Source of the DNA: a bacterium
Lineage (GTDB): Bacteria; Elusimicrobiota; Elusimicrobia; UBA1565; UBA9628
Reading direction: 5' to 3'
DNA: 64,000 nucleotides
Assembly: GCA_021799485.1 (NCBI GenBank)
Contig: JAJZAK010000003.1
Coordinates: forward strand, 1-64,000
Shown: piece after piece, positions 1 through 19,088 of the stretch
Layout: every line of letters begins with the position of its first letter
Numbering within the stretch: the first letter of the stretch is position 1
The notes under the pieces: model-generated
Databases searched by the model: none
Seen by the model: only the letters and a program-made list of their open reading frames with translations
What the model was told of the DNA's origin: nothing
Translations under genes and position numbers: made by a program

Positions 1-22
1 ATGAAATCACGGAGGATGGACC

Positions 23-634
23 ATGCAAGGACGAATCGTCGCTAAGAAAGGATGGTGGATCGGCGGGGGCGCGCTCCTCGCGGCCGTCGGCATCGCCGTC
101 ATCTTCGGCTGCGGCGGCGGCGGTGGCACCTCGTCAGGAGGAGGCTCCAGTGTTAAAGCTACGCCATATCAAGAGGCGGATGCCGTAATGTCTTTCTATT
201 TTGGCCAATGGGGTCTAGGATACCTCTATTCCGATAATACAATCCCCTGTGCCCCCGGATCGATGGTTATCTCAGGGGCGAGTTGCAATAATTGCGGTGG
301 TGTTGGGACTGAAAGCGGCGGCGGAACCATTACAATGACGACTTGCGATGCCGGTTCAGATTTCTCCAACACGACATTTTCTTCCGCGACAATCTCCTAT
401 GCCTGGACTTTGACGTTCACGGGATCGGGATGTAGCGCTAATGGGTGCTATTCCCACACCGTAACGGCCAGCAATCCAGTAAATATAACGATCGAGGTGC
501 CTCAGCCCAACGGTGGCATGATCAACCAAACCATCTCCTGCTCGTTTTCCCTTACCTTATCAGAACCCCAAAGCACCGGCCCATATTCGTTCACGGGCAC
601 AATCTGTGGCCAATCGGCATCCGGGCAATTGTAA
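23..634 (+). CDS. putative secreted lipoprotein, Gly-rich tether and Cys-rich C-terminal part, hypothetical
   Basis: ORF with N-terminal TM/signal segment followed by ...VIFGCGGGGG (lipobox-like), many Cys; locally lower GC than neighbours. Confidence 0.6.
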   Translation: MQGRIVAKKGWWIGGGALLAAVGIAVIFGCGGGGGTSSGGGSSVKATPYQEADAVMSFYFGQWGLGYLYSDNTIPCAPGSMVISGASCNNCGGVGTESGGGTITMTTCDAGSDFSNTTFSSATISYAWTLTFTGSGCSANGCYSHTVTASNPVNITIEVPQPNGGMINQTISCSFSLTLSEPQSTGPYSFTGTICGQSASGQL

Positions 635-730
635 ATCGGGTGAATTCAGGGACATGCTGAATTTGGGGTGGGTGTTCAGGATCAGCTTAAATTGGACACT
701 TTTGGCTTAAAAACAGCATAGGGGAAAACT

Positions 731-788
731 GGTGACACCATACTGATTACGGCCGTTTCGGCATAAGGGAAATCCGTATGGTGTCACC
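731..788 (+). repeat. palindromic repeat element copy 1 (GGTGACACCATAC family)
   Basis: 18-bp arms ggtgacaccatactgatt / aatccgtatggtgtcacc (1 mismatch), loop acggccgtttcggcataaggga homologous to the reverse complement of the copy 2 loop. Confidence 0.9.
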
Positions 789-858
789 GGGTTCCCTCGC
801 GTTCGGCAAGCCAGTCCGCCACCGCGGGGGACAGCGGCATGTCCACGAGGAACTTCAA
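784..858 (-). pseudogene. truncated DUF5615 PIN-like protein (toxin-type), ends inside repeat copy 1
   Basis: TTG start overlapping the DUF433 stop (TTGA); reads (M)KFLVDMPLSPAVADWLAEREGTR* , the N-terminus typical of DUF5615 proteins; stop codon is the TGA of the repeat (cggTGAcacc). Confidence 0.7.
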
Positions 859-1079
859 TGGCTGAATTCGACCGTCTCTTCCTCGGCCAGGATCGCGGCA
901 AAACGAAGGGCTTCGTCGATGTCCTCGGAGGCCAGGTAGGGATAATTCTTGAGGATGGAATCCTTCGTCTCCCCGGAAGCAAGAAGGCCCAGGAGCCGGG
1001 AAACGGGAAAGCGCAGGTCCCTGATGCAGGGCTTGCCCGAGCAGACGGCGGGATCGACGGTGATGCGCGGGAGGTTCAT
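855..1079 (-). CDS. DUF433 domain protein (antitoxin-type)
   Basis: MNLPRITVDPAVCSGKPCIRDLRFPVSRLLGLLASGETKDSILKNYPYLASEDIDEALRFAA is a classic DUF433 sequence. Confidence 0.9.
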   Translation of the reverse strand: MNLPRITVDPAVCSGKPCIRDLRFPVSRLLGLLASGETKDSILKNYPYLASEDIDEALRFAAILAEEETVEFSH

Positions 1080-1158
1080 GACAAATGCAGTGTAACAGTT
1101 GTTCCGGTTATCCGCAATGGCCCGCCATGCTCGACGTGCTGCGACCTTGAAATGACGG

Positions 1159-1986
1159 ATGAGGAGCGGATGGCGGATGGTCCCGCTGATTATGTTCGTT
1201 CTCTTGGCCCTTGCGGCGCCCGCGCGGGCGGCCGAGAGCTCGGCCTTCCCCCAAGGCGAGAGCCTCTTCGCGCCGGTCCTGGCCGACCCGCGCAGGGTCC
1301 AGAGCGGGCTCTATTTCTACATGCTCGACGGCCAGCCTACGGCCGACGTCGCGCTCGGGCGCAGCTGGGGCATGGAACGATGGACGTCGGGCGGCTGGTC
1401 CTGGCAATGGGACGTCGAGGGGATGGCCTATTCCAGAATTTATATCACCGGCACCCCCAGCACCTTTGAGACGATCGACTTCTTCGGGAAGCTCCCCCTC
1501 GAAATCCGTCGCGGACGGTTCTCGGCCAAGCTCCAGCTCTACCACCAAAGCTCCCATCTGGGCGACAACTATATAGAGAGCACGGGGCGGTTCGGGAGCT
1601 ATTTCAGTGTCGAGGGCTTTCGGGCCCAGGCCTCTTTCATGGCTTGGCCGTGGCTGAGGCTCTACGGCGGCGACACCCAGCTTGTGCATACCATCCCCGC
1701 CTTGCATCGCCAGATCCTTCAGGGCGGCTTTGAGGCCGCGAGCGTCGAAAATCCGCTTACGCACGACGTTCTCTGGAGCCTCTATCTCGCCCAGGACGTC
1801 CAGTCACAGGAGTACAACCACTGGAACCCGAGCGGCGACAGCGTGCTCGGCGTGCGGCTGACGGGGACGCAGTCCGGTCGGTCCCTGAGGCTTCAGCTCG
1901 GCTATTTCGCGGGGCATTCCCCCTTCGGGCAGTTCTATGACGTTCTCGAGCATTACGCCGACTGCGGGATCATCTTCGATTTTTGA
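1159..1986 (+). CDS. DUF1207 domain-containing protein, probable outer-membrane/periplasmic
   Basis: signal peptide; FPQGESLFAPVLADPRRVQSGLYFY and C-terminal HYADCGIIFDF are DUF1207-like. Confidence 0.8.
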   Translation: MRSGWRMVPLIMFVLLALAAPARAAESSAFPQGESLFAPVLADPRRVQSGLYFYMLDGQPTADVALGRSWGMERWTSGGWSWQWDVEGMAYSRIYITGTPSTFETIDFFGKLPLEIRRGRFSAKLQLYHQSSHLGDNYIESTGRFGSYFSVEGFRAQASFMAWPWLRLYGGDTQLVHTIPALHRQILQGGFEAASVENPLTHDVLWSLYLAQDVQSQEYNHWNPSGDSVLGVRLTGTQSGRSLRLQLGYFAGHSPFGQFYDVLEHYADCGIIFDF

Positions 1987-4786
1987 GGGGGATGCGGCGG
2001 CGCCAGCGACTCCCCCGCCGCCGGGCCTTGCCCGATTCTTTTTTCTCGGCGCGATCCTTTTCTCGGCGTCCCTGGGAGGCGCCGCGGAGGGGGCCTCGGA
2101 CGCGGATGACGGCTATCCCCTGCCGTCTCCCCCCAAGGCCGCGAGCGAGTCGCGGCTGCTGCGCTTCTCGGCGGGGCATGCCGACTATACGGAACGCCGC
2201 GAGATCGTCCATATGAGCAGCGCGGCCCGCGTCGACACGGGCGATCTGGCCGTCAAGTCGGACGAGCTTTACTTCAGCCTTCCGCGCTCCTACTTTTTCT
2301 CGCCCGATTTCATCATCATGGAGGGCTCGTCGCATACCTTCGCGGGGAGCCCCGGCCTCTTCAGGCTTCGCGGCGAGGACTGGAGCTCCGGCTGGGCCTG
2401 GAACGCCCGGGCTTCCTACGGACATTGGAACGTCGCCGCGTCGAGCGCCGAGTGGGCGGACGACGGGAGCGCGGTCTTCCGCCAAGCCGATATCACGAGC
2501 TGCCCCCTCTATCCCGACCCGGACTACCGCGTTCACTCAAGCTACGTCAAAATAACGCCGGCGGGCCGGCTTTGGGCCTTCAACGACGTGCTCTACCTGG
2601 GCGAGCGCCCGGTCTTCTATAGCCCCGTCCTCACGACCCGGCTGCCGCGCGACACGACGAGCCAGATCGGATCGGGTCTTGGCACCCAGGTCAACGTGGG
2701 CCAGATGGCCCGCAACGGCTACTTCGTTCGGAGCTGGACGCCCTTGACGCTCGGGCGGCTGCGCGCGAGGGCGCTCGTCGACTATTACCAGCTGGGAGGC
2801 CCCGCCGGCGGGCTTATTTTGGGCCGCAACGTGAAATCCCTCCAGAACTCGGCCCTCTTCTACGATGTCCAGGACCCCATCCTCAACCGCAATCGCTGGG
2901 TCGCCTTCGGCAACTATTCCGAGCGGCTGTCAAAGAGCCTGTCCTTCCAGGGACGGCTTCAGGACCAGTCGGATGCCAACGTCGGCAACGACTACCTGGC
3001 GAACACTCCCTACGACATGCCCAACCAGCTCATCAACAGCGCGGGACTCACCGGGCATTGGAGCAACGTCACCGCGGTCGCGGCCTACAGCCGGACGGAT
3101 CAGGCTCAGGCGCCGTTCAACTCGATCAACGACGCCGCGCCGCAGACGTTCGTCAAGGTCGCGGAATCGGAGTCCTTGAGCGCCCAGAGCGCGCCCGTGA
3201 GCCTAAGCTCCCATTCCTGGGTCTTCATGTATTCAGGCCAGGCGGCCAATGCCTATGCCCTTGGACAGGGGTATCTATCGAAAACGGCGCAGGGCTCCGT
3301 CAACGCGACCCGGACCTGGAGGCCGACTCGGAACATCTCCTTCGCCTCCAAGGTAGCCTACCAGGCGAACTATTCGAACGTGGAGGTCCTGCCGGGGGAT
3401 GTAAGCCCGTCCTCCAACGTGATCATGGGGCTTGCGACCGCGACGAACGACCTGCGCTGGCGCTCGCCGCTTGGAAGCTGGGACTTCAAGCACGCGATCG
3501 CCGTCAACCAGCGGCCCAACGGCTTGGCGCCCGCCAGCGGATCCCCGGACTACGGCATCCAGTCCAACCAAGCGACGATCGAGGACATGCTTCAGCCGAC
3601 GAGCCTCACGATGATACGCTTCCAGTCGGGCTACAATCTCCAGCAGACCCGCGGCCAGCCGATCGGCTTTCGCGACCGGGTCTCGCCCATCACGGCCGAC
3701 GCGGACTATTTCCCTGGATTTCACTCGATTGTCACCCTGCACGAGGTCTATCTTCTCGACGGCGGCAACCAGTCGACGATCGCGAGCGCGCAGTGGGGGG
3801 ACCGCAAGAAATCCTTTTTGAACGTCTCGGCGGGCTACTTGAACCCCGGGCTCTCGCCCGGGGCGCTGCAGACCTACAACGCGACCGTCCAGGCGGGCTG
3901 GCGGACGCCGGGAAGCCCCTGGCAGGTCACCGGGACGCTGGGCGCCCAGACCCAAACGGCGGCGGCTCTTCGCGATGGGACGCCGCCACAGTTGTTCGAC
4001 AAGGAAATCTCCATCTCAAGGGATTGGCATGACTTCCACGCGAACGTCTCCATCATCGAGCGGACGGGCAACGTCCGTTCGATCGGCGGCAACCTTCAAC
4101 TCGTCTTCCCGCCGGGGCCCAAGACCACCGCCGAGCGCAACGCCTATTGGGAGGGCCGCTGGGCGCCGGCCTCCTGGGCGGCGCGGGCGTCGTCGAGTTC
4201 GGCGGTTTCGCCTCTCGCGTCGGGTCCTTCGGCCCCAGCCAAGCCTCCGGCGGCCCGGGCGAAGAAGAAAGGCCTTCTGGCCGGATTTTTCTGCGCCCTC
4301 GGGATGGGGAAGGGATGCGCCGCCAAGCGTCCGCCCAAGGGCTGGAAGGCGCCCCCTCTCTATCTGCGTCCTCTCGTCAACAAAACGCAGCAGCCGGGGC
4401 TCGACTTGTCCTTCAACCAGCCGCTCTTGGACGAGATCATGCGGGACGGACGCCTCCACCTGGCGCCCGAGGGCCAAGCCGCCTACCAAATCCTCTTCAC
4501 GCTCACGCGCTACGATCTGCAGCCGCTCCAGACCTCGGCGGGGCTCGCCCCCAGCACTTACATGCTTAAGATATCCGGCGACCTTGCGCTCGACGATGGA
4601 AACGGGAAGAAGGTATGGAGCAAGGACAATGTCTTCGGGCTTCTTGTCTATACCGCGGACACGCTCTCGGGCGGGATCACGGAGCGGCAGGCCCGGGCGC
4701 AGATTTGGGATTTCCTGGCGCGCCGCGTCGTCGCGGAGACGATCAGCGGCCTCCTCGATTTAAACTCCCATGGCAAAAACCGGTGA
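1937..4786 (+). CDS. LptD-like LPS-assembly outer membrane protein fused to a C-terminal LptE-like domain; start codon uncertain
   Basis: N-terminal OstA/LptD-type region (ADYTERREIVHMSSAARVDTGDLAVKSDELYF...RQADITSCPLYPDPDYRVHSSYVKITPAGRLWAFNDVLYLGERPVFYSPVL), beta-barrel region, then a Pro/Ala/Ser/Lys linker and PPLYLRPLVNKTQQPGLDLSFNQPLLDEIMRDGRL...YQILFTLTRYD (LptE-like). ORF start overlaps DUF1207; no clear ATG before the signal-peptide-like LARFFFLGAILFSASLGGAAEGA. Confidence 0.75.
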   Translation: MTFSSITPTAGSSSIFEGDAAAPATPPPPGLARFFFLGAILFSASLGGAAEGASDADDGYPLPSPPKAASESRLLRFSAGHADYTERREIVHMSSAARVDTGDLAVKSDELYFSLPRSYFFSPDFIIMEGSSHTFAGSPGLFRLRGEDWSSGWAWNARASYGHWNVAASSAEWADDGSAVFRQADITSCPLYPDPDYRVHSSYVKITPAGRLWAFNDVLYLGERPVFYSPVLTTRLPRDTTSQIGSGLGTQVNVGQMARNGYFVRSWTPLTLGRLRARALVDYYQLGGPAGGLILGRNVKSLQNSALFYDVQDPILNRNRWVAFGNYSERLSKSLSFQGRLQDQSDANVGNDYLANTPYDMPNQLINSAGLTGHWSNVTAVAAYSRTDQAQAPFNSINDAAPQTFVKVAESESLSAQSAPVSLSSHSWVFMYSGQAANAYALGQGYLSKTAQGSVNATRTWRPTRNISFASKVAYQANYSNVEVLPGDVSPSSNVIMGLATATNDLRWRSPLGSWDFKHAIAVNQRPNGLAPASGSPDYGIQSNQATIEDMLQPTSLTMIRFQSGYNLQQTRGQPIGFRDRVSPITADADYFPGFHSIVTLHEVYLLDGGNQSTIASAQWGDRKKSFLNVSAGYLNPGLSPGALQTYNATVQAGWRTPGSPWQVTGTLGAQTQTAAALRDGTPPQLFDKEISISRDWHDFHANVSIIERTGNVRSIGGNLQLVFPPGPKTTAERNAYWEGRWAPASWAARASSSSAVSPLASGPSAPAKPPAARAKKKGLLAGFFCALGMGKGCAAKRPPKGWKAPPLYLRPLVNKTQQPGLDLSFNQPLLDEIMRDGRLHLAPEGQAAYQILFTLTRYDLQPLQTSAGLAPSTYMLKISGDLALDDGNGKKVWSKDNVFGLLVYTADTLSGGITERQARAQIWDFLARRVVAETISGLLDLNSHGKNR

Positions 4787-4847
4787 CACCATACGGATTT
4801 CCCCTGATGCCGAAACGATCATAATCCGTATGGTGTCACCGGTTTTT
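4775..4847 (-). repeat. palindromic repeat element copy 2
   Basis: perfect 25-bp inverted repeat aaaaaccggtgacaccatacggatt / aatccgtatggtgtcaccggttttt, 23-nt loop; inverted relative to copy 1. Confidence 0.95.
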
Positions 4848-4872
4848 CAGATGGGTGGCTAATCAAAAGAAG

Positions 4873-5022
4873 ATGTCTCGCTGGCAAAACACGCTGATCG
4901 CCATTCTGGTCGCGATCGCGGCGCTCGCGACGGCGGCGCTTGTGATCGTCGACCTTTGCGATAACGGGGGGAAGCCCCTGGATGCCGCGTCGTCCGCCGC
5001 GGCGGCCTTTCGCGCGCGGTGA
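4873..5022 (+). CDS. small (49 aa) single-TM hypothetical protein
   Basis: ATG ORF MSRWQNTLIAILVAIAALATAALVIVDLCDNGGKPLDAASSAAAAFRAR*, hydrophobic N-terminal half. Confidence 0.3.
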   Translation: MSRWQNTLIAILVAIAALATAALVIVDLCDNGGKPLDAASSAAAAFRAR

Positions 5023-5108
5023 TTGCGTTCGCGGAGGTCGCGAGAAAATACGCCGGCGCCCTTGGGGGCGGGAGATGAGATCTGTATCGATAGTCGGCAA
5101 ATATCCGG

Positions 5109-5114
5109 TATAAT
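5109..5114 (+). promoter_or_regulatory. putative -10 element (TATAAT) 8 nt before the ATG of the DUF4143 ATPase
   Basis: exact TATAAT at 5109-5114, ATG at 5123; no convincing -35. Confidence 0.4.
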
Positions 5115-5122
5115 AGCCATAT

Positions 5123-6271
5123 ATGTTTCAGAGGCTCCTTGCCAAGCCTTCCCGATCCATCCTGCTCGTCGGCCCGCGCGGCACGGGGAAGTCGACATGG
5201 ATCGGGTCGCATGTTCGGGGGGCGCTTTTCTACGATCTCCTCGATTCCCGCCAGTCCCTGCGTCTCAACAGGGACCCCGGCATCCTGCACCAGGAGGCCG
5301 CCGCGCTTCCCCGGGGCTCGTGGGTCGTCATCGACGAGGTTCAAAAGGCCCCCGCGCTTCTCAACGAGGTGCATCGCCTCATCGAGGAGAGGAAGCTGAA
5401 ATTCGTCCTCTCGGGATCGAGCGCCAGGCGGCTGCGCCGCGGCGGGACGAATCTCCTCGCCGGCCGGGCGATCCTGACCCCCTTTTTCCCCCTGGTATCC
5501 CGGGAAGTCGGCTTTAAGTTCCGCGGTCTCGGGCGCCTCCGCTACGGGATGCTCCCCGAGGCGTTCCTAGCGGACGATCCCGAGCCCTATCTGGAAACCT
5601 ATGCCCGCGTCTATCTCCAGGAGGAGATCAAGGCCGAGGCCCTGACGCGGAATATCGGAGCCTTCGCGCGCTTCCTTGAAGTGGCGGCCCGGCAGAACGG
5701 CCAGGTGACGAACGTCTCCAACATCGCCCGGGACGCCCAAGTCGCCCGGCAGACGGTGGAGGGCTATTTCCAGATCCTCGACGATACGCTGATCGGAGCG
5801 TGGCTGCCCGCCTGGAAGCTCAAGCGCGCCACCAAGCAGGTCCGCCACCCGAAGTTTTATTTCTTTGATCCGGGCGTCTGCCGGGCGCTCTCGGAACGCC
5901 TTCCCTATCCCCCGACGGACGAGGAATCGGGATTCTTGCTGGAGACATGGATCTTGGCCGAGCTGCGCGCCTACCTTTCCTATTCGCGTCTGGGCTATCC
6001 GCCCCATTACTGGAGCTCTCATGACGGGGTCGAAGCCGACTTCCTGGTCGAGACCGCGAGGGGCTTCGTCGCCTTGGAGGTCAAATGGGGGACGCGCTGG
6101 CGCGGGGCGTTCAATCGGGGCCTTCTGCGCCTGCGCGATGAGCTGGGTCGCGGGAGGGTGCGCTGCTTGGGCGTCTACACCGGGGAGCGGGAGGCGGATT
6201 TCAACGGCGTGCGCGTGCTGCCCTGGCTCGAATTTCTCAAGAGGCTCTGGGGCGGCGAGATCATTCGTTAG
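5123..6271 (+). CDS. AAA ATPase with DUF4143 domain
   Basis: Walker A GPRGTGKST, VVIDEVQKAP, FVLSGSSARRLRRGGTNLLAGRA, C-terminal FLVETARGFVALEVKWG nuclease-like region. Confidence 0.9.
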   Translation: MFQRLLAKPSRSILLVGPRGTGKSTWIGSHVRGALFYDLLDSRQSLRLNRDPGILHQEAAALPRGSWVVIDEVQKAPALLNEVHRLIEERKLKFVLSGSSARRLRRGGTNLLAGRAILTPFFPLVSREVGFKFRGLGRLRYGMLPEAFLADDPEPYLETYARVYLQEEIKAEALTRNIGAFARFLEVAARQNGQVTNVSNIARDAQVARQTVEGYFQILDDTLIGAWLPAWKLKRATKQVRHPKFYFFDPGVCRALSERLPYPPTDEESGFLLETWILAELRAYLSYSRLGYPPHYWSSHDGVEADFLVETARGFVALEVKWGTRWRGAFNRGLLRLRDELGRGRVRCLGVYTGEREADFNGVRVLPWLEFLKRLWGGEIIR

Positions 6272-6413
6272 GAGCTGTCAACGACCGCCTCGTCAATGAG
6301 CTCAAGGGTCGCTTTGCGCGCCACGGTTTTCATCATGGTCGGAATGCCGGGCATCGTATGCCTCCCCTGGCGAAATCGCCGTCGCGTATACTAAGCTGTC
6401 CCCAGGCGAAACC

Positions 6414-7373
6414 ATGCCCGACATCGATCCCCGGCTCGCGCGCTCGCTCATCTTGGACGAGCTCTTCGACCTGACGCTTTACCGGAGGCTGCGCGAGACG
6501 GCGGCCGGCGAGGCCCGAAACGTCCTCGACCGTCTCATCCCCGTCGAGGTGAAGCACTTCCATTTCTGGCAAAGCTTCTTCAAAACGACGGTCGACGGGC
6601 TCGATTATCCGCGCCGGATCAAGCTCGCGGCCGCCGTCGCCTTCTGCCGGCTCTTCGGCCCTTCCGCGATCCATTTGGTCCTGGAGGCGATCGAGATCCA
6701 CGGCGTGCAAAAGTACCTGGACGTCTGGGAGGCTTACAAGGATGGGCCGCTGGGGCAAGCCGTGCGCGATATCCTGGAAGACGAGTTCCGCCACGAGGAC
6801 GCGCTGGTGAGCGGGCTCGCCGCGCGAAAAATCAATCCGGAACGGATCCGCAGCCTCTTTCTGGGCTTTAACGACGGCTTGGTGGAGATTCTGGGGGCGG
6901 TGAGCGGCTTCTTCGCCGCCTTCGACAACCGCTCGACGATACTCATGGCGGGCGCCACGGTCTCGGTCGCCGGGGCGATCTCGATGGCCGCCGGAGCCTA
7001 TCTGGCCTCGTCTTCCGAACGCGAAATCGAGAAGATCGAGCGCGGCAAGGCCGCCTTTCTTGATCAAGCGTCCCGCGCGTCCCGCGCGGCCATGGAGGGC
7101 CATCCTTGGGGACTGGGCTTGCTCGTGGGCGTCAGCTACTTCCTGGGCGCCCTCATTCCGCTTCTTCCCGTCGCCGCGGGCTTTTCGGGGCTCTTCTTTT
7201 CACTTCTCTCCTCCGGGACGATGATCATCATCGTCTCGGCGCTTCTCTCCTTTCTCTCCGGCATGGAGATACGGCGCCGCATCCTCACGAACCTCCTCGT
7301 CATGGCGGCGGCCGTGGGGGTGAGCTACGCGATCGGGGAACTGGCCAAGGCCGTCTGGGGCGTCAGGATTTAA
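6414..7373 (+). CDS. ferritin-like domain plus VIT1/CCC1-type membrane transporter
   Basis: N-terminal metal-ligand residues (LDELFDLTLYRRL, VEVKHFHFW, LEAIEIHG, EDEFRHED) then FNDGLVEILGAVSGFFAA...AGAISMAAGAYLASSSEREIE, VIT1 hallmark. Confidence 0.85.
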   Translation: MPDIDPRLARSLILDELFDLTLYRRLRETAAGEARNVLDRLIPVEVKHFHFWQSFFKTTVDGLDYPRRIKLAAAVAFCRLFGPSAIHLVLEAIEIHGVQKYLDVWEAYKDGPLGQAVRDILEDEFRHEDALVSGLAARKINPERIRSLFLGFNDGLVEILGAVSGFFAAFDNRSTILMAGATVSVAGAISMAAGAYLASSSEREIEKIERGKAAFLDQASRASRAAMEGHPWGLGLLVGVSYFLGALIPLLPVAAGFSGLFFSLLSSGTMIIIVSALLSFLSGMEIRRRILTNLLVMAAAVGVSYAIGELAKAVWGVRI

Positions 7374-8841
7374 GGCGTCGGGACTTGTCCCCGTACGGAT
7401 ACCACCACGGCTTCGGGTTCTGCTCGAAGTCCCAGTGGACATGCTTGGACTGCCGGAAAGCCTCCAGGCCTTCCTCTCCCAGCTCCCGGGAGCCGCCGGA
7501 CGCCTTATAGCCGCCGAACGGCCCCGCGTCGTTGTCGGTCAGGGGGTCGTTGACCCAAACCGTGCCCGCCTGGGCCTCCTCGTAGAAGCGCTTGGCCTTT
7601 TTGGCGTCCAAGGTATAAAGGTTGGCTCCCAGTCCATAGATGGAATCGTTGGCGAGACGGATCGCCTCGTCGAAGCTGCCGTAGGATTTCACGGGGCAGA
7701 CCGGTCCGAAGGTTTCGTCGCGCATGACGGCCATCGAGTGGTCGACGTTCGCGAGCACCGTGGGCTCGTAGAAGTAGCCTTTCGAGAGCCGCGCCGGCTT
7801 CTTGCCGCCGGCCAAGAGCCTCGCTCCGCGGCGGACCGCCTCCCGGACGTGCGCGTCCACCTGGCGCCGATAGCGCGCGCCGATCATGGGACCGACGTCC
7901 GTCTCGGGGTCCATGCCGGGGCCGACTCGCAGGCTCTTCGTGAAGCCGACGAGCCGGTCCGTGAAAGTCTTGGCGACGCTCTGATGCACGTAGACGCGCT
8001 CGGCCGAGGTGCAGACCTGCCCGGCGTTGAGAAAGCTCGCCCAGGCGACGGCCTTCGCCGCGACGTCCAAGTCCGCGTCCTCGCAGACGACGAAGGCGTC
8101 CTTGCCTCCCAGCTCCAGGTGGCATTTCTTGACCGCCTCGGCGCAAATCCCTCCGATTCTCTTTCCCACCGCGAGGCTTCCCGTAAAAGCGACGTAGTCG
8201 ACGCCCGGGTCGCGCACGAGCGCCTCGCCCGCCGTTTCCCCGCGCCCCGTCACGATGTTGACGACGCCCTTCGGAAGGCCCGCGAAGACTTCGGAGAGCG
8301 CCAGGGTGGCGAGCGGGGTCTGCTCGGCGGGCTTGATGACGACGGCGTTGCCGGCCGCCAGGGCCGGGGCGACCTTCCAGGCGAGAAGCAGCAAGGGGTA
8401 GTTCCACGGGACGATCGCGAGCACGACCCCGTAGGGCTCCTTTAAGACGAGATTGAGCTGGGTCGTCTCTCCCGACGGGATGACGCGGCCGCGGCTGTTG
8501 CGCCCCAACTCGGCGTAGTAGTCGAAACACGCGGCGGTCCAGCCCAGCTCGTCGACGTTCTCGCGAAGGGGTTTGCCGCCTTCCAGGGTCAGCAGCGCCG
8601 CGAGTTCCCGCGTTTTTTCCCGCAATCCGCGGGCGATCTCATGGAGCATCTCGGCGCGCGCATGCGCGGCCGAGCGCCGCCAGGACTTCTCATAGGCCGC
8701 GCGCGCGGCGCGCACGGCCTCGCGGGCCTGGGCGGCCGTCGCGTCCGGGGCCTCGTCGACGATCTCCTCCGTCGCGGGGTTGACGACCTTGATGCGGGAT
8801 TTCCCGGAAACGAAATCGCCGCCGATCCACATGGGTTTCAT
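7363..8841 (-). CDS. aldehyde dehydrogenase family protein
   Basis: VPWNYPLLLLAWKVAPALAAGNAVVIKPAEQTP, LELGGKDAFVVCEDADL, NAGQVCTSAERVYV. Confidence 0.95.
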   Translation of the reverse strand: MKPMWIGGDFVSGKSRIKVVNPATEEIVDEAPDATAAQAREAVRAARAAYEKSWRRSAAHARAEMLHEIARGLREKTRELAALLTLEGGKPLRENVDELGWTAACFDYYAELGRNSRGRVIPSGETTQLNLVLKEPYGVVLAIVPWNYPLLLLAWKVAPALAAGNAVVIKPAEQTPLATLALSEVFAGLPKGVVNIVTGRGETAGEALVRDPGVDYVAFTGSLAVGKRIGGICAEAVKKCHLELGGKDAFVVCEDADLDVAAKAVAWASFLNAGQVCTSAERVYVHQSVAKTFTDRLVGFTKSLRVGPGMDPETDVGPMIGARYRRQVDAHVREAVRRGARLLAGGKKPARLSKGYFYEPTVLANVDHSMAVMRDETFGPVCPVKSYGSFDEAIRLANDSIYGLGANLYTLDAKKAKRFYEEAQAGTVWVNDPLTDNDAGPFGGYKASGGSRELGEEGLEAFRQSKHVHWDFEQNPKPWWYPYGDKSRRLKS

Positions 8842-10421
8842 GGACGACCTCCCGCGAGCGTGACGTTGACGTCATTCCCGAAAAGCCGCGGGCTCTGGCG
8901 CCGGTTGTCGTCTCGAAGCGCCGTTCTCTCCACGCGGGGCTTGGCGTAGTCGTAGAGAGCCTGGAGCGAAATCCGGCCGCGCTTTTCCTGGAGCCCTTTC
9001 AAGAGATAGAACGTGAAAAGCCCGTGGCGCTGGCTGTCGATCGGCCCCGCGATCTGCGTTCTCCCGGCGGCGGTGGTCACCCCCATGTCCGAGGCGGACC
9101 AGAGCCCCGGGTCGAGCCGCACCAAGACCGAGCGCGCGCCGCCGGCCATGACCGAGCGTCCCCCGGCGCCCGAGAAGCAGCAGTCGAGGGCCACGAGAAC
9201 GTTCTTGGCCGGGAGAGCCGCCAGATCCCGGGAGAGGCTTTTTAAGGAATAGGCCGTATCCTTGAGGTATTGGGGGTCCCCATCCGACGGCAGAATATAG
9301 GCGTCCCCGGATGCCGGATCCGGCGCTCCGTGGCCCGAGTAATAGACGAAAACCGTCGCGCCGGGGTCCGTGCTCGTCTGATTGCGCAGCCACGTGGCGA
9401 TCATGGCCTTGATCTGGCTGTAGGTCGCCTGCTCGTCCTCGAGGAATCGGACGTTGCGGTCCTTGTATCCCAAGGCGCGCAGGTAGCGGCGCATGGTTTC
9501 GGCGTCCCGGTCGGCGTACAGCGCGGCCGGCAGGGATTCGGAATAGTGTTCGACCCCGATCACGACGGCGTAGGCGTGAGGGCGCGGGCGGTTCCTGAAT
9601 CCCGGCTCGTCGACTTCGGAGGGCCGGGGGGACGCCGGAGGAGCCGTCCCGGAGGACGGGAGCGCCGCCATGGCGAGGTTCCCCGTCACGGCGCTTTCGA
9701 GGAGCGAACGGATGAAAGGCCGGTCTTCCGCGGCCGCCAGCGTGGACGTGGTGACGGCCGCGCCGCGCTCGAGAAGAAGGCGGACCAATTTCTCGTTTCC
9801 TTTTTTGACCGCGGCCAAGAGAGGCGTGCCGTCCACGGGGCTTGCGGCGTTGGGATCGGCGCCGTGCTCGAGAAGAAGGCGCGCGACCTTCAGGGATCCC
9901 GAGCGGGCGGCGAGGATGAGCGGGGTCTCCCCGGAGGCGCTGCGGGCGTTGGCATCCGCCCCATGCCGGAGAAGAAGCTCGATGATGTCCGACTCGCCGG
10001 CCATGGCGGCGAAGAGCAGCGAGGTCATGTGGTAGGCTCCCCGGGAGTTGGGGTTGGCGCCATGAGCGAGGAGGAACTTCACGATATCCGCGCGGCCCAT
10101 GTAGGACGCCCAGGCGATCAGCGGGCAGCGCTCGACGATAAAGGCGCTGCCGCTGGGGCAGTTGACCTTGGCGTGGACGTCGCCGCCTTTTTCCAGGAGG
10201 AGCTTGACGATGCCGGGATGGCGTTGGTAGGCCGCGATCTCGATGGCGGCTCCCGTTTGGTCGGCGCCGGCCTCAAGCGCGTCCCGGACTCCCTCGGCGT
10301 CTCCCGATCGCGCCGCGCCCAAAAGCTCCGAGTTCATGCCGCCGCAGCCCGCCGCGCCCAGGGCGAGGAGGGGCAGAAGACGGAAGAAGGAAGGCGCGAG
10401 AGAGAAAGGGGGCCGATTCAT
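8838..10421 (-). CDS. lipoprotein with ankyrin repeats and C-terminal caspase-like (peptidase C14) domain
   Basis: lipobox LALGAAGCGG; repeated LLLxHGADPNA units; caspase motifs YAVVIGVEHY, VFVYYSGHGAPD, VALDCCFSGAGGR. Confidence 0.9.
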   Translation of the reverse strand: MNRPPFSLAPSFFRLLPLLALGAAGCGGMNSELLGAARSGDAEGVRDALEAGADQTGAAIEIAAYQRHPGIVKLLLEKGGDVHAKVNCPSGSAFIVERCPLIAWASYMGRADIVKFLLAHGANPNSRGAYHMTSLLFAAMAGESDIIELLLRHGADANARSASGETPLILAARSGSLKVARLLLEHGADPNAASPVDGTPLLAAVKKGNEKLVRLLLERGAAVTTSTLAAAEDRPFIRSLLESAVTGNLAMAALPSSGTAPPASPRPSEVDEPGFRNRPRPHAYAVVIGVEHYSESLPAALYADRDAETMRRYLRALGYKDRNVRFLEDEQATYSQIKAMIATWLRNQTSTDPGATVFVYYSGHGAPDPASGDAYILPSDGDPQYLKDTAYSLKSLSRDLAALPAKNVLVALDCCFSGAGGRSVMAGGARSVLVRLDPGLWSASDMGVTTAAGRTQIAGPIDSQRHGLFTFYLLKGLQEKRGRISLQALYDYAKPRVERTALRDDNRRQSPRLFGNDVNVTLAGGRP

Positions 10422-10468
10422 GCTTCCCGCCGCGATGCCTTCCGCTTTTCCGCTTCCGTCCGCGTAGA

Positions 10469-11830
10469 CTAGACCTTCTTGATCTCGATGACGAGCTTGC
10501 CGACGGTGTCCTGGGCGTCGCCGTAGAGCATGCGGGTGTTGTCGCGATAGAAAAGCTCGTTTTCGACGCCCGAGAATCCCTTCCCCTGCCCGCGCTTCAA
10601 GACGATGACGGTCTTGGCGTTCTCGACGTCGAGGATCGGCATCCCCGCGAGAGGGCTCCCCGGCCGGTGGGCCGCGGGGTTGACCACGTCGTTGGCGCCG
10701 ATCACGAGCGCGACGTCGGTCGTCGCGAACTCGGAGTTGATCTCGTCGCGGTCGAAAAGGCGGTCGTACGGGACGTTCGCCTCGGCCAAGAGCACGTTCA
10801 TGTGCCCCGGCATGCGCCCGGCGACGGGATGGATCGCGAATTTGACCGACCCGCCCCGGGCCTCGATGGCGTCCATGAGATCCTTGACCTTGTGCTGGGC
10901 CTGGGCGACGGCCATGCCGAAGCCGGGGACGATCACGACCCTCGACGCGTAGGCGAGCGCCACGGCCGCGTCCGAAAGCTCGATGGGCTTCAAGCTCCCC
11001 TGGACCTCCGAGGCCTGTTCCGCGGCGCCGAAGGCGCCGAAAAGGACGTCCCCCAAGGATCGATTCATGGCCTTGGCCATAAGAAGGGTCAAGAGGGTTC
11101 CCGCCGCGCCGACGAGGATTCCGGAGACGCCCATCGCGGCGTTGCCGACCGCGAAGCCTTCCGCCGCGACGGCCAAGCCGGTGAGGGCGTTGTAAAGGGA
11201 GATGACGACCGGCATGTCGCCGCCGCCGATCGGGAGCGTCATCAAAAGGCCGAAGAGAAGCCCCAGGGCCAGGAAGGGGACGACGAGGGAACGGTCGCCC
11301 GCGTGGAGGAGGACGGCCGCGCAGGCCAGGGAGGAGGCGAGAACGAGGACGTTGCCGGTCTTTTGGAGAGGGTAGACGACGGCGCGGGAGCGCATCCAGC
11401 CTTGGAGCTTGAGGAAGGCGATGACGCTTCCCGAGAACGAGGTCGTCCCGATGAGCCCTCCCAGGACGGACAGGGGCGCCGAGAGAGGGGTCCAGCGGGA
11501 CCTCAACAGTTCGATCGCGGCGATCGCCGCCGCGGCGCCGCCGCCCATGCCGTTATAAATCGCGATCATCTGGGGCATGTCGGTCATCGGCACCTTTCCC
11601 GCGAGGATCCAGGCCGGCGCGCCTCCGACGGCGACGGCGGCGAGAACGAGCCCCAGATGCCCCAGGCCGGGCGTCAAAAAGGCGGCGAGGGTCGCCGCGA
11701 TCATGGCGCCCCCGGCCCAGAGGATGCCGCCTTTCGCCGTGGCGGGGCGGCTCATGCGCTTTAAGGCCAGGATGAAGAAGAGGACGGCGGCGAGATAAAC
11801 CGGCGGATCGAGGCGCGCGAGCATGCCCAC
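10469..11830 (-). CDS. pntB: NAD(P) transhydrogenase subunit beta
   Basis: YNGMGGGAAAAIAAIELL, VVIVPGFGMAVAQAQHKVKDL, FAIHPVAGRMPGHMNVLLAEANVPYD, IGANDVVNPAA. Confidence 0.97.
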   Translation of the reverse strand: MGMLARLDPPVYLAAVLFFILALKRMSRPATAKGGILWAGGAMIAATLAAFLTPGLGHLGLVLAAVAVGGAPAWILAGKVPMTDMPQMIAIYNGMGGGAAAAIAAIELLRSRWTPLSAPLSVLGGLIGTTSFSGSVIAFLKLQGWMRSRAVVYPLQKTGNVLVLASSLACAAVLLHAGDRSLVVPFLALGLLFGLLMTLPIGGGDMPVVISLYNALTGLAVAAEGFAVGNAAMGVSGILVGAAGTLLTLLMAKAMNRSLGDVLFGAFGAAEQASEVQGSLKPIELSDAAVALAYASRVVIVPGFGMAVAQAQHKVKDLMDAIEARGGSVKFAIHPVAGRMPGHMNVLLAEANVPYDRLFDRDEINSEFATTDVALVIGANDVVNPAAHRPGSPLAGMPILDVENAKTVIVLKRGQGKGFSGVENELFYRDNTRMLYGDAQDTVGKLVIEIKKV

Positions 11831-11831
11831 G

Positions 11832-12143
11832 CTATCGGGCTCCGGGAGCGCCCGGCTTTTTCTTTCCGGACTCGAACATGTCGAGCATCCGCGCGGTCAC
11901 GGCGTAGCCGCCCAGGACGTTCGCCGAGGCGAGGGCCACGGCGAGAAAGCCGATCGCCGTCTCAAGCGGCGTCTGGGCGCGTCCCAGGGCGAGGATCGCC
12001 CCCACGAGGACGATGCCGTGGATGAAGTTCGAGCCCGACATGAGGGGGGTATGGAGAAGCGCCGGAACCCGGGCGATGACCTCGAAGCCCGTGAAGGCCG
12101 CGAGGATCGCGATATAGAGGCTCGCCCACAGATCGGGGGTCAT
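11832..12143 (-). CDS. pntA2: NAD(P) transhydrogenase subunit alpha, membrane part
   Basis: VPALLHTPLMSGSNFIHGIVLVGA. Confidence 0.92.
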   Translation of the reverse strand: MTPDLWASLYIAILAAFTGFEVIARVPALLHTPLMSGSNFIHGIVLVGAILALGRAQTPLETAIGFLAVALASANVLGGYAVTARMLDMFESGKKKPGAPGAR

Positions 12144-13279
12144 CGCGCCTCCAAAAGCTGGCGGGTCGGCTCGTGTCTGAGAGAGCCCTCGCGGCATAGG
12201 AGAGTCGCGGCGAGGATTTCGTCTTTCTCCGCCGGAACGACGCGGCCGTCGGGGCCGATCAGGATTTTAAGGAAAGCCTCGATGTTCTTGGAGTACATAT
12301 AGCTCGCGTGATGCGCCAGTTCGCTTGGGAGGTTCACGGGGCCGACGATCACGACGCCGTTTTCCTCGACGCGCTGCCCCGGCTTCGTCAATTCGCAATT
12401 GCCGCCCGACTCGGCGGCGGCGTCGACGACGACGGCGGCGGGCCTCATGCGGGCCACCATGTCGCGGGTGACGATGAGGGGGGCTTTCTTTCCCGGGACG
12501 TTCGCCGTGGTGACGACGGCGTCCGCGGCCGCGACGGCCGAGGCCAGGAGGGCCTGCTGCTTGTGCCTCTCCGCGTCCGTGAGCTCGCGCGCGTACCCGC
12601 CGGAACCCGATGCCTCCAAGGGGAGGGCGAGGAACTTGGCGCCCAAGCTCTGGACCTGCTCCGCGGCGGCCGAGCGCACGTCATAGGCCTCGACCATCGC
12701 GCCCAGGCGCCGGAACGTCGCGATCGCCATCAAGCCCGCGACCCCGGCGCCGCAGACGAGGACCTTCGCCGGCCGTAGGGTCCCGAAGGCCGTCGTGAGC
12801 ATCGGAAGAAAGCGGGGGGAGAGCTCGGCCGCGAGGAGAGCCGCCCGGTAGCCCGCGGCGGTCGCTTGGGAGGAAAGGACGTCCATCGACTGGGCCCGCG
12901 AGATGCGGGGCATGAGATCCATGGCGTAGACGGCGATCCCGGCGGCGTTCATGGCGCGGACGGACTCGAGATGGCGGCCGGGATAGACGAGGGAGACCAG
13001 GATGCCGCCGGGCTTTTCGCAGGACCGAGCGTCCTCGGGGGTCGAAGGGCCGACCTGGACGACGAGGTCGGTCTTCGCGAAAAGCTCGGCTCTGTCCGAG
13101 GCCAAGAGCGCGCCGGCCTCCGCGTAGGCCGCATCCGGGAATGAAGCCCGGACGCCCGCGCCCTTCTCGATATGGACCTCAAGCCCCGATTTCGCGAGCC
13201 GGGCCGCCGTCTCCGGAACGAGGGCGACGCGGCGCTCCCCGGCCGCCGTCTCTTTGGGGACTCCGATTCTCAGGGGCAT
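12140..13279 (-). CDS. pntA1: NAD(P) transhydrogenase subunit alpha, nucleotide-binding part
   Basis: MPLRIGVPKETAAGERRVALVPETAARL; VLVCGAGVAGLMAIATFRRLGAMVEAYDVR. Confidence 0.95.
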   Translation of the reverse strand: MPLRIGVPKETAAGERRVALVPETAARLAKSGLEVHIEKGAGVRASFPDAAYAEAGALLASDRAELFAKTDLVVQVGPSTPEDARSCEKPGGILVSLVYPGRHLESVRAMNAAGIAVYAMDLMPRISRAQSMDVLSSQATAAGYRAALLAAELSPRFLPMLTTAFGTLRPAKVLVCGAGVAGLMAIATFRRLGAMVEAYDVRSAAAEQVQSLGAKFLALPLEASGSGGYARELTDAERHKQQALLASAVAAADAVVTTANVPGKKAPLIVTRDMVARMRPAAVVVDAAAESGGNCELTKPGQRVEENGVVIVGPVNLPSELAHHASYMYSKNIEAFLKILIGPDGRVVPAEKDEILAATLLCREGSLRHEPTRQLLEAR

Positions 13280-13347
13280 TCGGACCGGAAACGATTCTAT
13301 AAAACACTGGCCGTGGAAGGCCATATCATGATTTCGTGAGAATAATT

Positions 13348-13402
13348 GGTGACACCATACCGATTTCTCCGCATGGAGGCTGGAAATAGGTATGGTGTCA
13401 CC
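13348..13402 (-). repeat. palindromic repeat element copy 3 (diverged)
   Basis: ggtgacaccataccgatttc ... gaaataggtatggtgtcacc, same outer arm as copies 1 and 2 but different loop; orientation assignment not firm. Confidence 0.85.
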
Positions 13403-13422
13403 GGTTTACCTAATGGGGGGCG

Positions 13423-14361
13423 TTAAACGGGGACGGCTGTCTCGCGGAAATGCTCGATCGTCCGGCCCAGGCCTTCCTTTAGAGGAACGCGGGGCTCCCA
13501 GCCGAGCCTCCGCCGCGCTAGCCGGATATCCGGGCGCCGCCTCTTGGGATCGTCCGTCGGCAGGGGCTTATGGACGATCGGGGCCTTCGATCCCGCGAGG
13601 CCGCGGATCAGTCTGGCAAGCTCGAGGATCGTGACCTCGTCGGGATTGCCGAGGTTGACGGGCTCCTGGGGGCCTCGCTCGAGGAGCCGGATGATCCCGT
13701 CCACCAGATCCGAGACGTAGCAGAGACTTCTCGTCTGCGATCCTTTCCCGAAGACGGTGAGGGGGCGGCCTCGCAGGGCCTGGCAGATGAAGTTGGGCAC
13801 CGCCCGGCCGTCGTCGCGCCGCATGCGGGGGCCGTAGGTGTTGAAGATGCGCGCGATGCGCACCGGCATCCCGTGCGCGCGGCGATAGGCCATCGTCATC
13901 GCCTCGGCGAAGCGTTTCGCCTCGTCGTAGACGCCGCGGGGGCCGATGGGGTTGACGTTGCCCCAGTAGGATTCGGGCTGGGGGTTGACCAGGGGGTCGC
14001 CGTAGATCTCGGAGGTCGAGGCCAGCATGAAGACGGCTTTTTTGTCCTTGGCGAGCCCGAGCGCCTTATGCGTTCCCAGGGCGCCGACCTTGAGAGTCGG
14101 GATCGGGAAGCGGGCGTAGTCGACCGGGGAGGCGGGGCTCGCGAAATGGAGTACCGCGTCGAGCTTCCCCGGAACGTGGATGTAGTCGACGACGTTGTGC
14201 TTGACGAAGACGAAGCGCGGGTTCTGGAAGAAGGGCGAGAGATTGGAGAGGCGCCCGGTCGACAGGTCGTCCATCGCCGTCACGTCGTCGCCGCGGTCGA
14301 GAAAACGCTCGACCAGGTGGCTTCCGAGAAAGCCCGCGCCCCCGGTGATGAGGAGCCTCAT
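13423..14361 (-). CDS. NAD-dependent epimerase, UDP-glucuronate decarboxylase (UDP-xylose synthase)-like
   Basis: [111 protein letters not shown]. Confidence 0.92.
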
Positions 14362-15692
14362 CGATCCCTTGATTCCGGACGCTCGGGGCGGCCGACGCCG
14401 ACGTAGGAGAGCCCGGCCCGTCGGGCCTTCTCCGGGTCGAGGAGGTTGCGGCCGTCGAGGAGGAGGGGGCCGCGCATGAGCCCGGCGATCTTCTTGAGGT
14501 CGAGATCCGCGTAGTCGTCCCATTCGGTGACGATCGCGAGGGCGTCCGCGCCGCGAGCGCAGTCGTAGGGCCCGCGGCAGAACTTGACGCCCTTGAACTC
14601 CTTGAGCCCTCGGGCTTTCGCCATCGCCACGGGATCATGCGCCTGGACGCGCACCCCGCGGCTTCGCAGGGCCGAGGCGATCTCGAGGCTGGGGGCGAAG
14701 CGCAGGTCGTCGGTCTTGGGCTTGAAGGAAAGCCCCAAGAGGCCCACGGTCTTTCCCTCGAGATTCCAGAGCCGGGCCTCGACCTGCCGCGCGACCCAGC
14801 CCTTCTGGTGCTCGTTGATCGACTGGACGGCCTTGAGAAGGGCGAAGTCGCAGCCTTTTTTCCTCGCGATCCAGTGGAAGGCCTCGAGGTCCTTGGGAAA
14901 ACAGAAGCCGCCGAAGCCGATGCCGGGGCGCAGGAACTGGGGGCCGATGCGGCGGTCAAGCCCCATGCCGCGGGCGACCGCCGAGACGTCGGCCCCCGTC
15001 TTCTCGCAAAGATCGGCGACGGCGTTGATAAAGGAGATCTTGGCCGCCAAAAAAGAGTTGGAGGCGTGCTTGATGAGCTCCGCGGATTTCGGATCGACGA
15101 CGAGGATCGGCGCCGCGAGCGGGGCATAGAGCTCGCGCATGAGCTCTTCCGCCCGCTTCGAGGAGGAGCCGATGACGACGCGGTCGGGCTTGAGGAAGTC
15201 TTCCACGGCGGAGCCTTCGCTCAGGAACTCGGGGTTGGAAACCACGTCGTAGGGGACGCGCTTCTTGTTCCAGCGCTCGACGGTCCGCTGGACCCAATGG
15301 CAGGTCTCGACGGGAACGGTGGATTTCTCGGCGATGACGAGGTAGTCCTCCATGTGCCGCGCGATTTCCTCGGTCACGCGCTCGACGGCGGAAAGGTCGG
15401 CCGAGCCGTCGGGGCGCGGGGGGGTTCCCACGGCGATGAAGACGACCTGGACCCGTCCCGAGGGGAGCCGCAGGCCGTCCTTGACCCGGCGCGCGAAGCG
15501 CAGGAGTTTTTTCTTGACCGCCCGGGAGAAAATTTCCGGCAGCCCCGGCTCGAAAATCGGGACCGTTCCCGAGCGCAGGGTCCGGAGCTTGGAGGGGTCG
15601 GATTCGACAAGGACGACCTCATGACCCATGGAGGCGAGGCAAGAGCCCGTGACCAGCCCGACATAGCCGGCGCCGACGACGCAAACGCGCAA
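14358..15692 (-). CDS. ugd: UDP-glucose 6-dehydrogenase
   Basis: [73 protein letters not shown]. Confidence 0.95.
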
Positions 15693-15712
15693 GGGCCGCT
15701 AGTCCTCGTCGG

Positions 15713-16654
15713 TCAAGGCTGGAAGTTCAGGGAGGCGCCGAGTCCGACGAAATTCTGGTCCGGCTCCCCGATCTGGGTGTAGCGCTCGTAGTAGGCGCGG
15801 AAGCTCAGCATCATGAGGTTGACGTTGCAGCCGGCCGTGTAGGCGCCGGAGGGCCGCTCCTGGGCGGCCGCGCTTAGAAACGTCGTGTGAGCGTAGTCGA
15901 GGTAGGGCGTGACGTAGGGGATCATCCCCATCGAGAGCTTGAAGTTGGCCGAGAAGTCGGGGAAGCCTTGGATCTCCTGGTTGACGCCGGGGAGGATTTC
16001 GACGGCCAGGGGTTGGAGCCGCGGATCGGCGAGGTTGCCGCTATAGACGGACTTCGTGAGATCGACGCTGAGCAGGTTGTCGAAAAAGGCGGCCGCGGCG
16101 TCGGCGCGGAAGTTCGTCTGGCCGATGGGCTCGCTTCCGGTCGATTGGGGGCCGAAGCCGCTGACGTCCGCGCTGTGGTCCCAGTAGGAGGCGCCCGCGC
16201 CGACGAGGAACCCCGAGAGTCCGGCGGGAGGGGGCGTCCAGCCCCAGGGCTGCCAGGAGGCGCTGGCGTCGTGGAACTGCTGGAGGCGCCGGACCTTCCC
16301 GGAGCCGGGGGAGAAGCCCAGGACTCCATGGATGCCGAAAAAGCGGTTGCTGTAGTGGTCCCCGTCGCTTTGCGGGGTCGCTCCGCCATGGATGCTGAGG
16401 CCGAAATTCGCCGTGTCGTAGGCCGCGCGGATGGCGTAGGTTTTGTATCCGACGTCGCCGGTCAGGTCGGAGTGATAGTCGTAGTAGCTGGGCGTCACGT
16501 GGAAGGCGCCGCCGAAGTCCACGGAGGCGTCGGTGCCTTCGTAGGAATGGCTTCCCATCGTTTGGCTGATGTCGGGGTTGATGTAGAAGGCGCGCGCCGG
16601 GGCGGCCTCCAAGATCATCGCGATGATGAGGACGGCGAAATATCGTGGCTTCAT
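15713..16654 (-). CDS. secreted outer-membrane beta-barrel-like hypothetical protein
   Basis: signal peptide MKPRYFAVLIIAMILEAAPARA and amphipathic strand-rich sequence ending ...FVGLGASLNFQP. Confidence 0.6.
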   Translation of the reverse strand: MKPRYFAVLIIAMILEAAPARAFYINPDISQTMGSHSYEGTDASVDFGGAFHVTPSYYDYHSDLTGDVGYKTYAIRAAYDTANFGLSIHGGATPQSDGDHYSNRFFGIHGVLGFSPGSGKVRRLQQFHDASASWQPWGWTPPPAGLSGFLVGAGASYWDHSADVSGFGPQSTGSEPIGQTNFRADAAAAFFDNLLSVDLTKSVYSGNLADPRLQPLAVEILPGVNQEIQGFPDFSANFKLSMGMIPYVTPYLDYAHTTFLSAAAQERPSGAYTAGCNVNLMMLSFRAYYERYTQIGEPDQNFVGLGASLNFQP

Positions 16655-16725
16655 AAAAAACATTTCTAAAGAATCATACATTATCGCAAGACGGTCGATC
16701 ACTCAAAAGGTATGATAGGAACTCC

Positions 16726-18021
16726 ATGGCGCTTCTCGAACGCATCGAGGGATCGAAGGCCGCGATCGGGATCGTGGGCCTGGGCTACGTGGGGCTTCCC
16801 CTCGCGGCGGCCTTCGCCGAGAGGGGTTTCTCCGTGACGGCCTTCGAGTCGGATGCCGCGCGCGCCGCGGCGCTGCGGGCGGGGAGGTCCTATGTACCCG
16901 ACGTTTCCTCGGAACGATTGAAGCCGCTCGTGAGGGCCGGCGTCTTGCGCGTCGCGAAGGGGCCGGCCGATTTCGCCGCGCAGGATGTCGTCGTCTTCTG
17001 CGTCCAGACGCCTTGGCGCAAGACCCAGGAGCCGGACATGGGCCCTCTCGTGTCGGCGGCGACCGCGGCGGCGCGCCATCTCAAGCGCGGCTCGCTCGTG
17101 ATCGTCGAGAGCACGACATGGCCCGGAGCGACCGAGGAGATTTTAAGGCCCGTCCTGGAGGCGTCGGGCTTGAGGGCCGGAAGGGATTTCCATCTCGCCT
17201 TCTCCCCCGAGAGAATCGACCCGGGAAACCCCCGCTACGGGCTTGCGAACACCCCGAAGGTCGTGGGCGGCCTGGATGTCGCCGCGACGAAGCAGGCCGC
17301 CGCCCTTTACTCCAAGATCGTCGAACGCGTCGTCCCGGTGTCCTCCGCCCGGGCGGCGGAGCTCGTGAAGCTCCTTGAGAACTCCTTCCGCGCGGTCAAT
17401 ATCGCGCTCGTGAGCGAAATCGCCCGGATTTGCCGGGCGCTCCGGCTCGACGTCTGGGAGGTCATCGCGGCCGCCGCGACGAAGCCCTTCGGCTTCATGC
17501 CCTTCTACCCCGGCCCCGGCATCGGCGGCCACTGCATCCCGAAGGACCCCAAACTCCTCGCTTGGAAGATGAAGAGCCTCAATTTCGAGGCGCGCATGGT
17601 CGAGCTCGCCTCCGCGATCAACGCCGCGATGCCGCAGTACGCCGTGGAACGATTAACCGAAGCCTTGAACGACTCTCAAAAACCGCTTAAAGGAAGCCGC
17701 GTTTTGATCCTGGGCGTGGCGTACAAGCCCGGGGTTCCGGACACCCGGGAGTCCCCGGCGATCGACGTCATGACGCTTCTTTGGCGCGCGGGCGCCAAGG
17801 TTTTCTACCACGACCCCTTCGTGCCGGCGGTCGAGGCCGGAGGGCGCCGATTAAAGAGCGTCGGACTGACGGCCGCCGTCCTTTCCCGCGCGGACGCGGT
17901 CGCGATACTCACGGCGCACCCGGACGTCGACTATGAGCTCGTTTTCAAGCGCGCCAAGATTCTTTTCGACGCCCGCAACGCTCTCCCCAAGCGCAAGCGC
18001 CCGGGCCTCTACCGCCTGTGA
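16726..18021 (+). CDS. nucleotide sugar dehydrogenase (WecC/WbpA-type)
   Basis: IGIVGLGYVGLPLAAAFAERGFSVTAFESD, FSPERIDPGNPRYGLANTPKVVGG, GPGIGGHCIPKDP. Confidence 0.93.
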   Translation: MALLERIEGSKAAIGIVGLGYVGLPLAAAFAERGFSVTAFESDAARAAALRAGRSYVPDVSSERLKPLVRAGVLRVAKGPADFAAQDVVVFCVQTPWRKTQEPDMGPLVSAATAAARHLKRGSLVIVESTTWPGATEEILRPVLEASGLRAGRDFHLAFSPERIDPGNPRYGLANTPKVVGGLDVAATKQAAALYSKIVERVVPVSSARAAELVKLLENSFRAVNIALVSEIARICRALRLDVWEVIAAAATKPFGFMPFYPGPGIGGHCIPKDPKLLAWKMKSLNFEARMVELASAINAAMPQYAVERLTEALNDSQKPLKGSRVLILGVAYKPGVPDTRESPAIDVMTLLWRAGAKVFYHDPFVPAVEAGGRRLKSVGLTAAVLSRADAVAILTAHPDVDYELVFKRAKILFDARNALPKRKRPGLYRL

Positions 18022-18046
18022 GCCTCGGCGGGAAGGGGCCGCGGCC

Positions 18047-19081: not shown

Positions 19082-19088
19082 GGGCTCC

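Follow-up and report, generated by a model that had tools for sequence, protein, structure and literature searches.

Does the outer-membrane LPS translocon ever occur as a single polypeptide? The translocons characterised so far use two proteins, LptE being a lipoprotein of its own that plugs the LptD barrel. A gene in the 64,000-nucleotide stretch of Elusimicrobiota DNA analysed here (the window) was read in an earlier note, from the sequence alone, as an LptD joined by a linker to an LptE. If so, barrel and plug would lie on one chain, with a plug that is apparently non-lipidated, and the locus raises the questions of whether the two proteins are truly joined and what such a protein might do. 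We find that this natural LptD-LptE fusion is real and so far unique, known from one metagenome-assembled genome.

One open frame with LptD and LptE parts

The frame runs uninterrupted for 949 codons on the plus strand (1937..4786) and contains an LptD-like part (residues ~54-746), a linker and an LptE-like domain at the coordinates first noted. It opens with an N-terminal extension and a probable signal peptide (1937..2086, plus; hydrophobic stretch LARFFFLGAILFSASLGGAA), for which the position of the start codon is putative. LptD frames of this Elusimicrobiota family often lack an ATG near the signal peptide (window 1937-1990; L010, L088, L011), and some overlap the upstream gene; their start codons look unusual. 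When the whole protein was used as a query against 37 relatives, residues ~30-750 matched an LptD gene and residues ~807-940 matched a different, small gene. Since each half corresponds to its own single gene in the relatives that were searched, the two-domain make-up of the protein is not due to chance.

The window protein alone had no match in Pfam and none useful in the PDB by direct sequence search, and NCBIfam gave no name to it or to the DUF1207 protein encoded just upstream. Its relatives were more informative. The LptD half is 28–34% identical to unfused LptDs across the family, and among 32 LptD homologues, 18 match PF03968 (LptD_N) and seven match PF04453 (LptD). An alignment profile of these relatives together with the fused LptD retrieved LptD structures from the PDB (8h1r, 5e-20; 7omm, 1.3e-8). 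Alignments made with MAFFT from mixed LptD and LptE sequences misplaced rows, and a balanced sequence set was chosen by trial. The AlphaFold2 model of the full-length protein (56 aligned rows, mean pLDDT 72.5, pTM 0.49) folds into an LptA/OstA-like β-jellyroll (residues ~75-187; 2159..2497, plus), supported also by the relatives' PF03968 matches, followed by a large β-barrel (residues ~197-722; 2525..4102, plus). The top 32 Foldseek matches of this model in the PDB were all LptD chains, at 1e-28 to 1e-10, the best being E. coli LptD (4q35_A, 1.6e-28). Furthermore, the columns that are invariant in 32 LptDs, C189 among them, are retained by the fused copy. The N-terminal part is thus LptD by homology and predicted fold, and its role in LPS transport is putative. 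By profile and predicted fold it has the same jellyroll and barrel as the LptD-LptE translocons of E. coli (PDB 4q35/4rhb) and Neisseria (7omm), while the disulphide pattern of E. coli LptD is not evident.

The C-terminal domain (residues ~807-940; 4355..4756, plus) agrees in its computed limits with the LptE-like region first placed at ~4350-4760. Its resemblance to LptE is borne out through its relatives and its predicted topology, but not by direct matching. All 37 stand-alone sequences in an alignment of 38 match PF04390 (LptE; best 6.1e-11) and are 30–41% identical to the fused domain, whereas the fused domain itself has no Pfam match and no meaningful NCBIfam match (below every threshold). 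The LptE family profile likewise found no LptE in the PDB and did not match the single E. coli LptE by hhalign. Aligned with its relatives, the fused domain still shows their NKTQQ-G, TRY and GG-TE--A motifs and their C-terminal helix region; it is cut to a core that lacks their Y-x-P-x-x-Q N-terminal stretch and their Pro-rich C-terminal tail. LptE folds as two helices packed on a four-stranded sheet, and the element order expected of it is β-α-β-β-β-α. The AlphaFold2 model places a strand at 807-810, a helix at 822-837, strands at 850-866, 872-887 and 892-906, and a helix at 916-946 (pLDDT ~80). The identity of the domain therefore follows from its close stand-alone relatives and the model topology rather than from a direct family match, and on these grounds an LptE-family assignment is supported.

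The linker and the rarity of the fusion

Between the two halves lies a Pro/Ala/Ser/Lys-rich linker, first described as ~60 residues long and delimited here by composition to residues ~751-806 (4187..4354, plus); it is predicted to be disordered, with pLDDT below 50 at residues 725-799. Within it, Cys794 of KKKGLLAGFFCALGMGKGC (4262..4318, plus) falls in the alignment column occupied by the lipobox cysteine in every one of the 37 stand-alone LptE relatives, so that the segment probably represents a decayed lipoprotein signal peptide. The GKGC motif at this cysteine is a poor, off-consensus lipobox and is internal to the protein. No ATG, GTG or TTG occurs in frame in residues 701-789; there is just a CTG at codon 781 and, four codons ahead of the cysteine, an ATG, and neither gives a usable start. 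The LptE domain thus has neither a signal peptide of its own at its N-terminus nor a good lipobox, and is not a separate polypeptide.

We considered whether a frameshift had joined two genes, which the earlier note had named as a way in which its reading could fail. Third-codon GC in the fused frame is 0.86 in LptD, 0.78 in the linker and 0.82 in LptE, and this steadiness, together with the absence of an in-frame start, gives nothing that points to such a join. A frameshift error is also argued against by the other reading frames, which encode no signal peptide across the linker.

The architecture was called unusual from the outset, and the genomes searched agree. Among 235 genomes of the class Elusimicrobia, the fused gene was found only in the window genome; the other LptD matches, among those listed, end near residue 750. 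The LptE relatives in 80 named loci, kept from 155 relatives found, are stand-alone, with a lipobox-like motif in every frame (98 frames), and none of these 80 loci has an lptD in its flanks up to ~3 kb. Read-through of a neighbouring lptD-lptE pair was accordingly rejected as the simple origin of the fusion. We also scanned 85,462 species genomes for the fused protein, a search that reaches close relatives only, and found none; nor did we find a natural LptD-LptE fusion described in the open-access literature searched.

An accessory copy in a variable island

Is the fusion the translocon on which this organism depends? That reading, implied by the earlier note, needs correction, because the same genome encodes an unfused LptD (contig C23, ~750 residues, ~32% identical to the fused LptD half) and an unfused LptE lipoprotein (C40, ~40% identical to the fused domain). 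The earlier note had named a separate canonical lptE as a finding that would refute it; the one present refutes just the notion that the fusion is the sole LptE of the cell, and the fusion itself stands. These ordinary proteins each have the same architecture as the corresponding fused half, but are encoded at separate loci. The stand-alone LptE also has a signal peptide, a lipobox, the Y-x-P-x-x-Q stretch and a Pro-rich tail, all of which the fused domain lacks. A PF04390 search of the genome found nothing although this lptE is present, the search being too strict for the lineage. In the family, lptD adjoins or lies near folC; here the C23 copy holds the folC locus and the fused copy lies elsewhere. 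A tree of 32 LptDs places the fused copy in the clade of genera g1, g5 and g6 with support of 100/100, not next to the organism's own copy, and its branch measures 1.83 substitutions per site, compared with 0.028 for the canonical copy. The placement of the fused domain in the LptE tree is unreliable. With unfused lptD and lptE present elsewhere in the genome, the fused gene is an accessory, long-branch paralogue.

The genome also encodes LpxC (1.4e-85) and a single detected LptF/LptG pair, and LPS is therefore probably made and exported. A 769-aa open frame had raised the suspicion of an LptF-LptG fusion, which was rejected when separate adjacent genes were found. In genus g6 we observed a short lipoprotein of 177 aa that resembles LptE and sits on a long branch (L049 at G007:C35, also in G015 and G019); G007 and G015 carry an ordinary LptE alongside it, and no second LptD was seen in the g6 genomes with the short protein.

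Directly upstream of the fused frame, and overlapping it by 50 nt, is a DUF1207 gene (PF06727, Pfam 8.6e-25; 1159..1986, plus), and the two are probably co-translated. It is the second DUF1207 copy in the genome, about 48% identical to the other (contig C52); LptD, LptE and DUF1207 are thus each encoded twice, in an ordinary copy and in this two-gene cassette. AlphaFold2 predicts the DUF1207 protein as a 12-strand outer-membrane barrel (pLDDT 86, pTM 0.80), and eight of the 15 Foldseek matches in the PDB at E ≤ 0.001 are to the outer-membrane phospholipase OmpLA (PldA), with the best TM-scores (0.52–0.64). Residues H129, S131 and D136 (H-x-S...D) are invariant in 25 DUF1207 relatives. E. coli PldA has H-D-S-N-G-R-S-D, in which the spacing of His, Ser and Asp agrees with that of DUF1207. 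The predicted DUF1207 barrel resembles the 12-strand barrel of OmpLA, and both sequences have H-x-S with an Asp at +7, but hhalign found no significant sequence match between them and any activity of DUF1207 is putative. We regard an OmpLA-like lipase as a lead with roughly even chances of being correct. DUF1207 was not mentioned in the open-access literature that we searched.

The surroundings of the cassette differ between congeners. Downstream, window 6412-19795 and congener G001 are syntenic, with 89–90% identity; this segment includes a gene whose predicted product is a lipoprotein combining a caspase (C14) domain with ankyrin repeats (window 8838-10421, minus). In G001 a VIT1-family gene directly adjoins glgP with no insertion, and in G002 the two are separated by other cargo, of which a GT9 gene and two probable barrels form part. 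Contig C43 of the window genome has glgP, two GT9 genes and an AAA_14 gene at its end, and the final 127 bases of this contig are identical to the first 127 bases of the window. This overlap suggests that the contigs join, which would place ~12 kb between glgP and VIT1. The cargoes of both G002 and the window genome (window side 1-6400) carry AAA_14/DUF4143 ATPases at this site. The DUF1207 and fused genes therefore sit in a variable island of roughly 12 kb with two glycosyltransferase-9 genes, an island absent from one congener.

A palindromic repeat (GTGACACCATACGGATT...AATCCGTATGGTGTCAC) forms a long terminator-like hairpin at the stop codon of the fused gene (4777..4846, plus; −42.6 kcal/mol, z −8.9). 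A second copy lies upstream (725..793, plus), such that copies flank the two-gene cassette, and a further copy is found at window 13340-13410. Related repeats recur at dozens of sites across three genomes of the genus, so that these elements may serve as terminators or be small mobile repeats.

Alternative explanations and a proposed tethered plug

We consider it likely that the fused gene encodes a self-contained, accessory single-chain LPS translocon of the outer membrane, in which a tethered, probably non-lipidated plug would dock in the barrel. One competing explanation is an artefact of assembly or sequencing, in which an indel error, a lost stop codon or a chimeric contig fused two real neighbouring genes, lptD and lptE. 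It would account for a fusion known from a single metagenome-assembled genome and close to a contig end, and for a signal-peptide-like stretch with an aligned lipobox cysteine at the junction, as two adjacent genes would have. However, the linker keeps the coding periodicity of a single frame, its lipobox departs from the consensus, no start was found in frame ahead of the cysteine and no signal peptide in other frames, and lptE adjoins lptD in no relative. Moreover, the contig (C12) remains syntenic with G001 downstream. Taken together, these observations make an artefact very improbable.

The gene could also be a real fused paralogue that is no longer an LPS translocon, either as a duplicate that is diverging or decaying, or as a barrel that serves a different purpose (for another glycolipid, or porin-like or adhesin-like). 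We think this unlikely: the 949-codon frame is intact, the invariant LptD columns are kept, jellyroll and barrel are both predicted, and the gene is located among putative outer-membrane-lipid genes and GT9 genes. Such a loss of function would nevertheless fit the long branch, an LptE domain that is only a core, and the absence of the fused gene from congeners. Somewhat more plausible, although still doubtful, is that horizontal transfer brought in the entire cassette from an unsampled Elusimicrobiota lineage whose ordinary translocon is a fused LptDE. No such lineage appeared in the 235 class genomes or the wider species-genome scan, and GC content and codon-position pattern are host-like; on the other hand, the island is patchy, the fused LptD groups away from the organism's own copy, and the two DUF1207 copies have diverged to about 48% identity. 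This alternative concerns origin and is compatible with a single-chain translocon as to function.

For the single-chain translocon, we propose that the gene began as an Elusimicrobiota LptD, either a duplicate or one taken up from an unsampled relative, which became joined to an LptE core via a flexible linker in the periplasm. Both the LptD C-terminus and the LptE N-terminus face the periplasm, and a linker of ~55 residues can therefore join them without changing the plug-and-barrel arrangement of the known LptD-LptE translocon, with which the domain, linker and order of the fused protein are compatible. The LptE domain would have lost its own start codon and good lipobox, with the covalent link replacing the lipid anchor at the barrel. 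Tethered in this way, LptE would plug its own barrel, and the two partners would stay matched even though the cell also makes ordinary LptD and LptE. The LPS for the fused translocon would come from the single LptF/LptG pair detected in the cell's genome and pass through the translocon's own jellyroll.

The overlap with the gene for a DUF1207 barrel, which may be an OmpLA-like lipase, and the two GT9 (heptosyltransferase-type) genes in the island suggest that the cassette adjusts outer-leaflet lipids. More tentatively, and as a possibility we would not yet favour, the single-chain translocon with its non-lipidated plug, an OmpLA-like DUF1207 lipase and dedicated glycosyltransferases may together form a horizontally variable 'second outer leaflet' cassette, which would insert a different form of LPS beside the ordinary LptDE.

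The LptD-LptE machine is essential and serves as a drug target, and its assembly needs two separately secreted proteins to meet. A natural fusion of the two gives direct genetic evidence that they act as a single unit. If our explanation is true, the lipid anchor of LptE is dispensable once the plug is tethered, and the fused gene would offer a one-gene translocon for structural work. The pairing with DUF1207 would likewise give a first functional lead for that family, and why this cell needs a second LptDE next to the first becomes a testable question.
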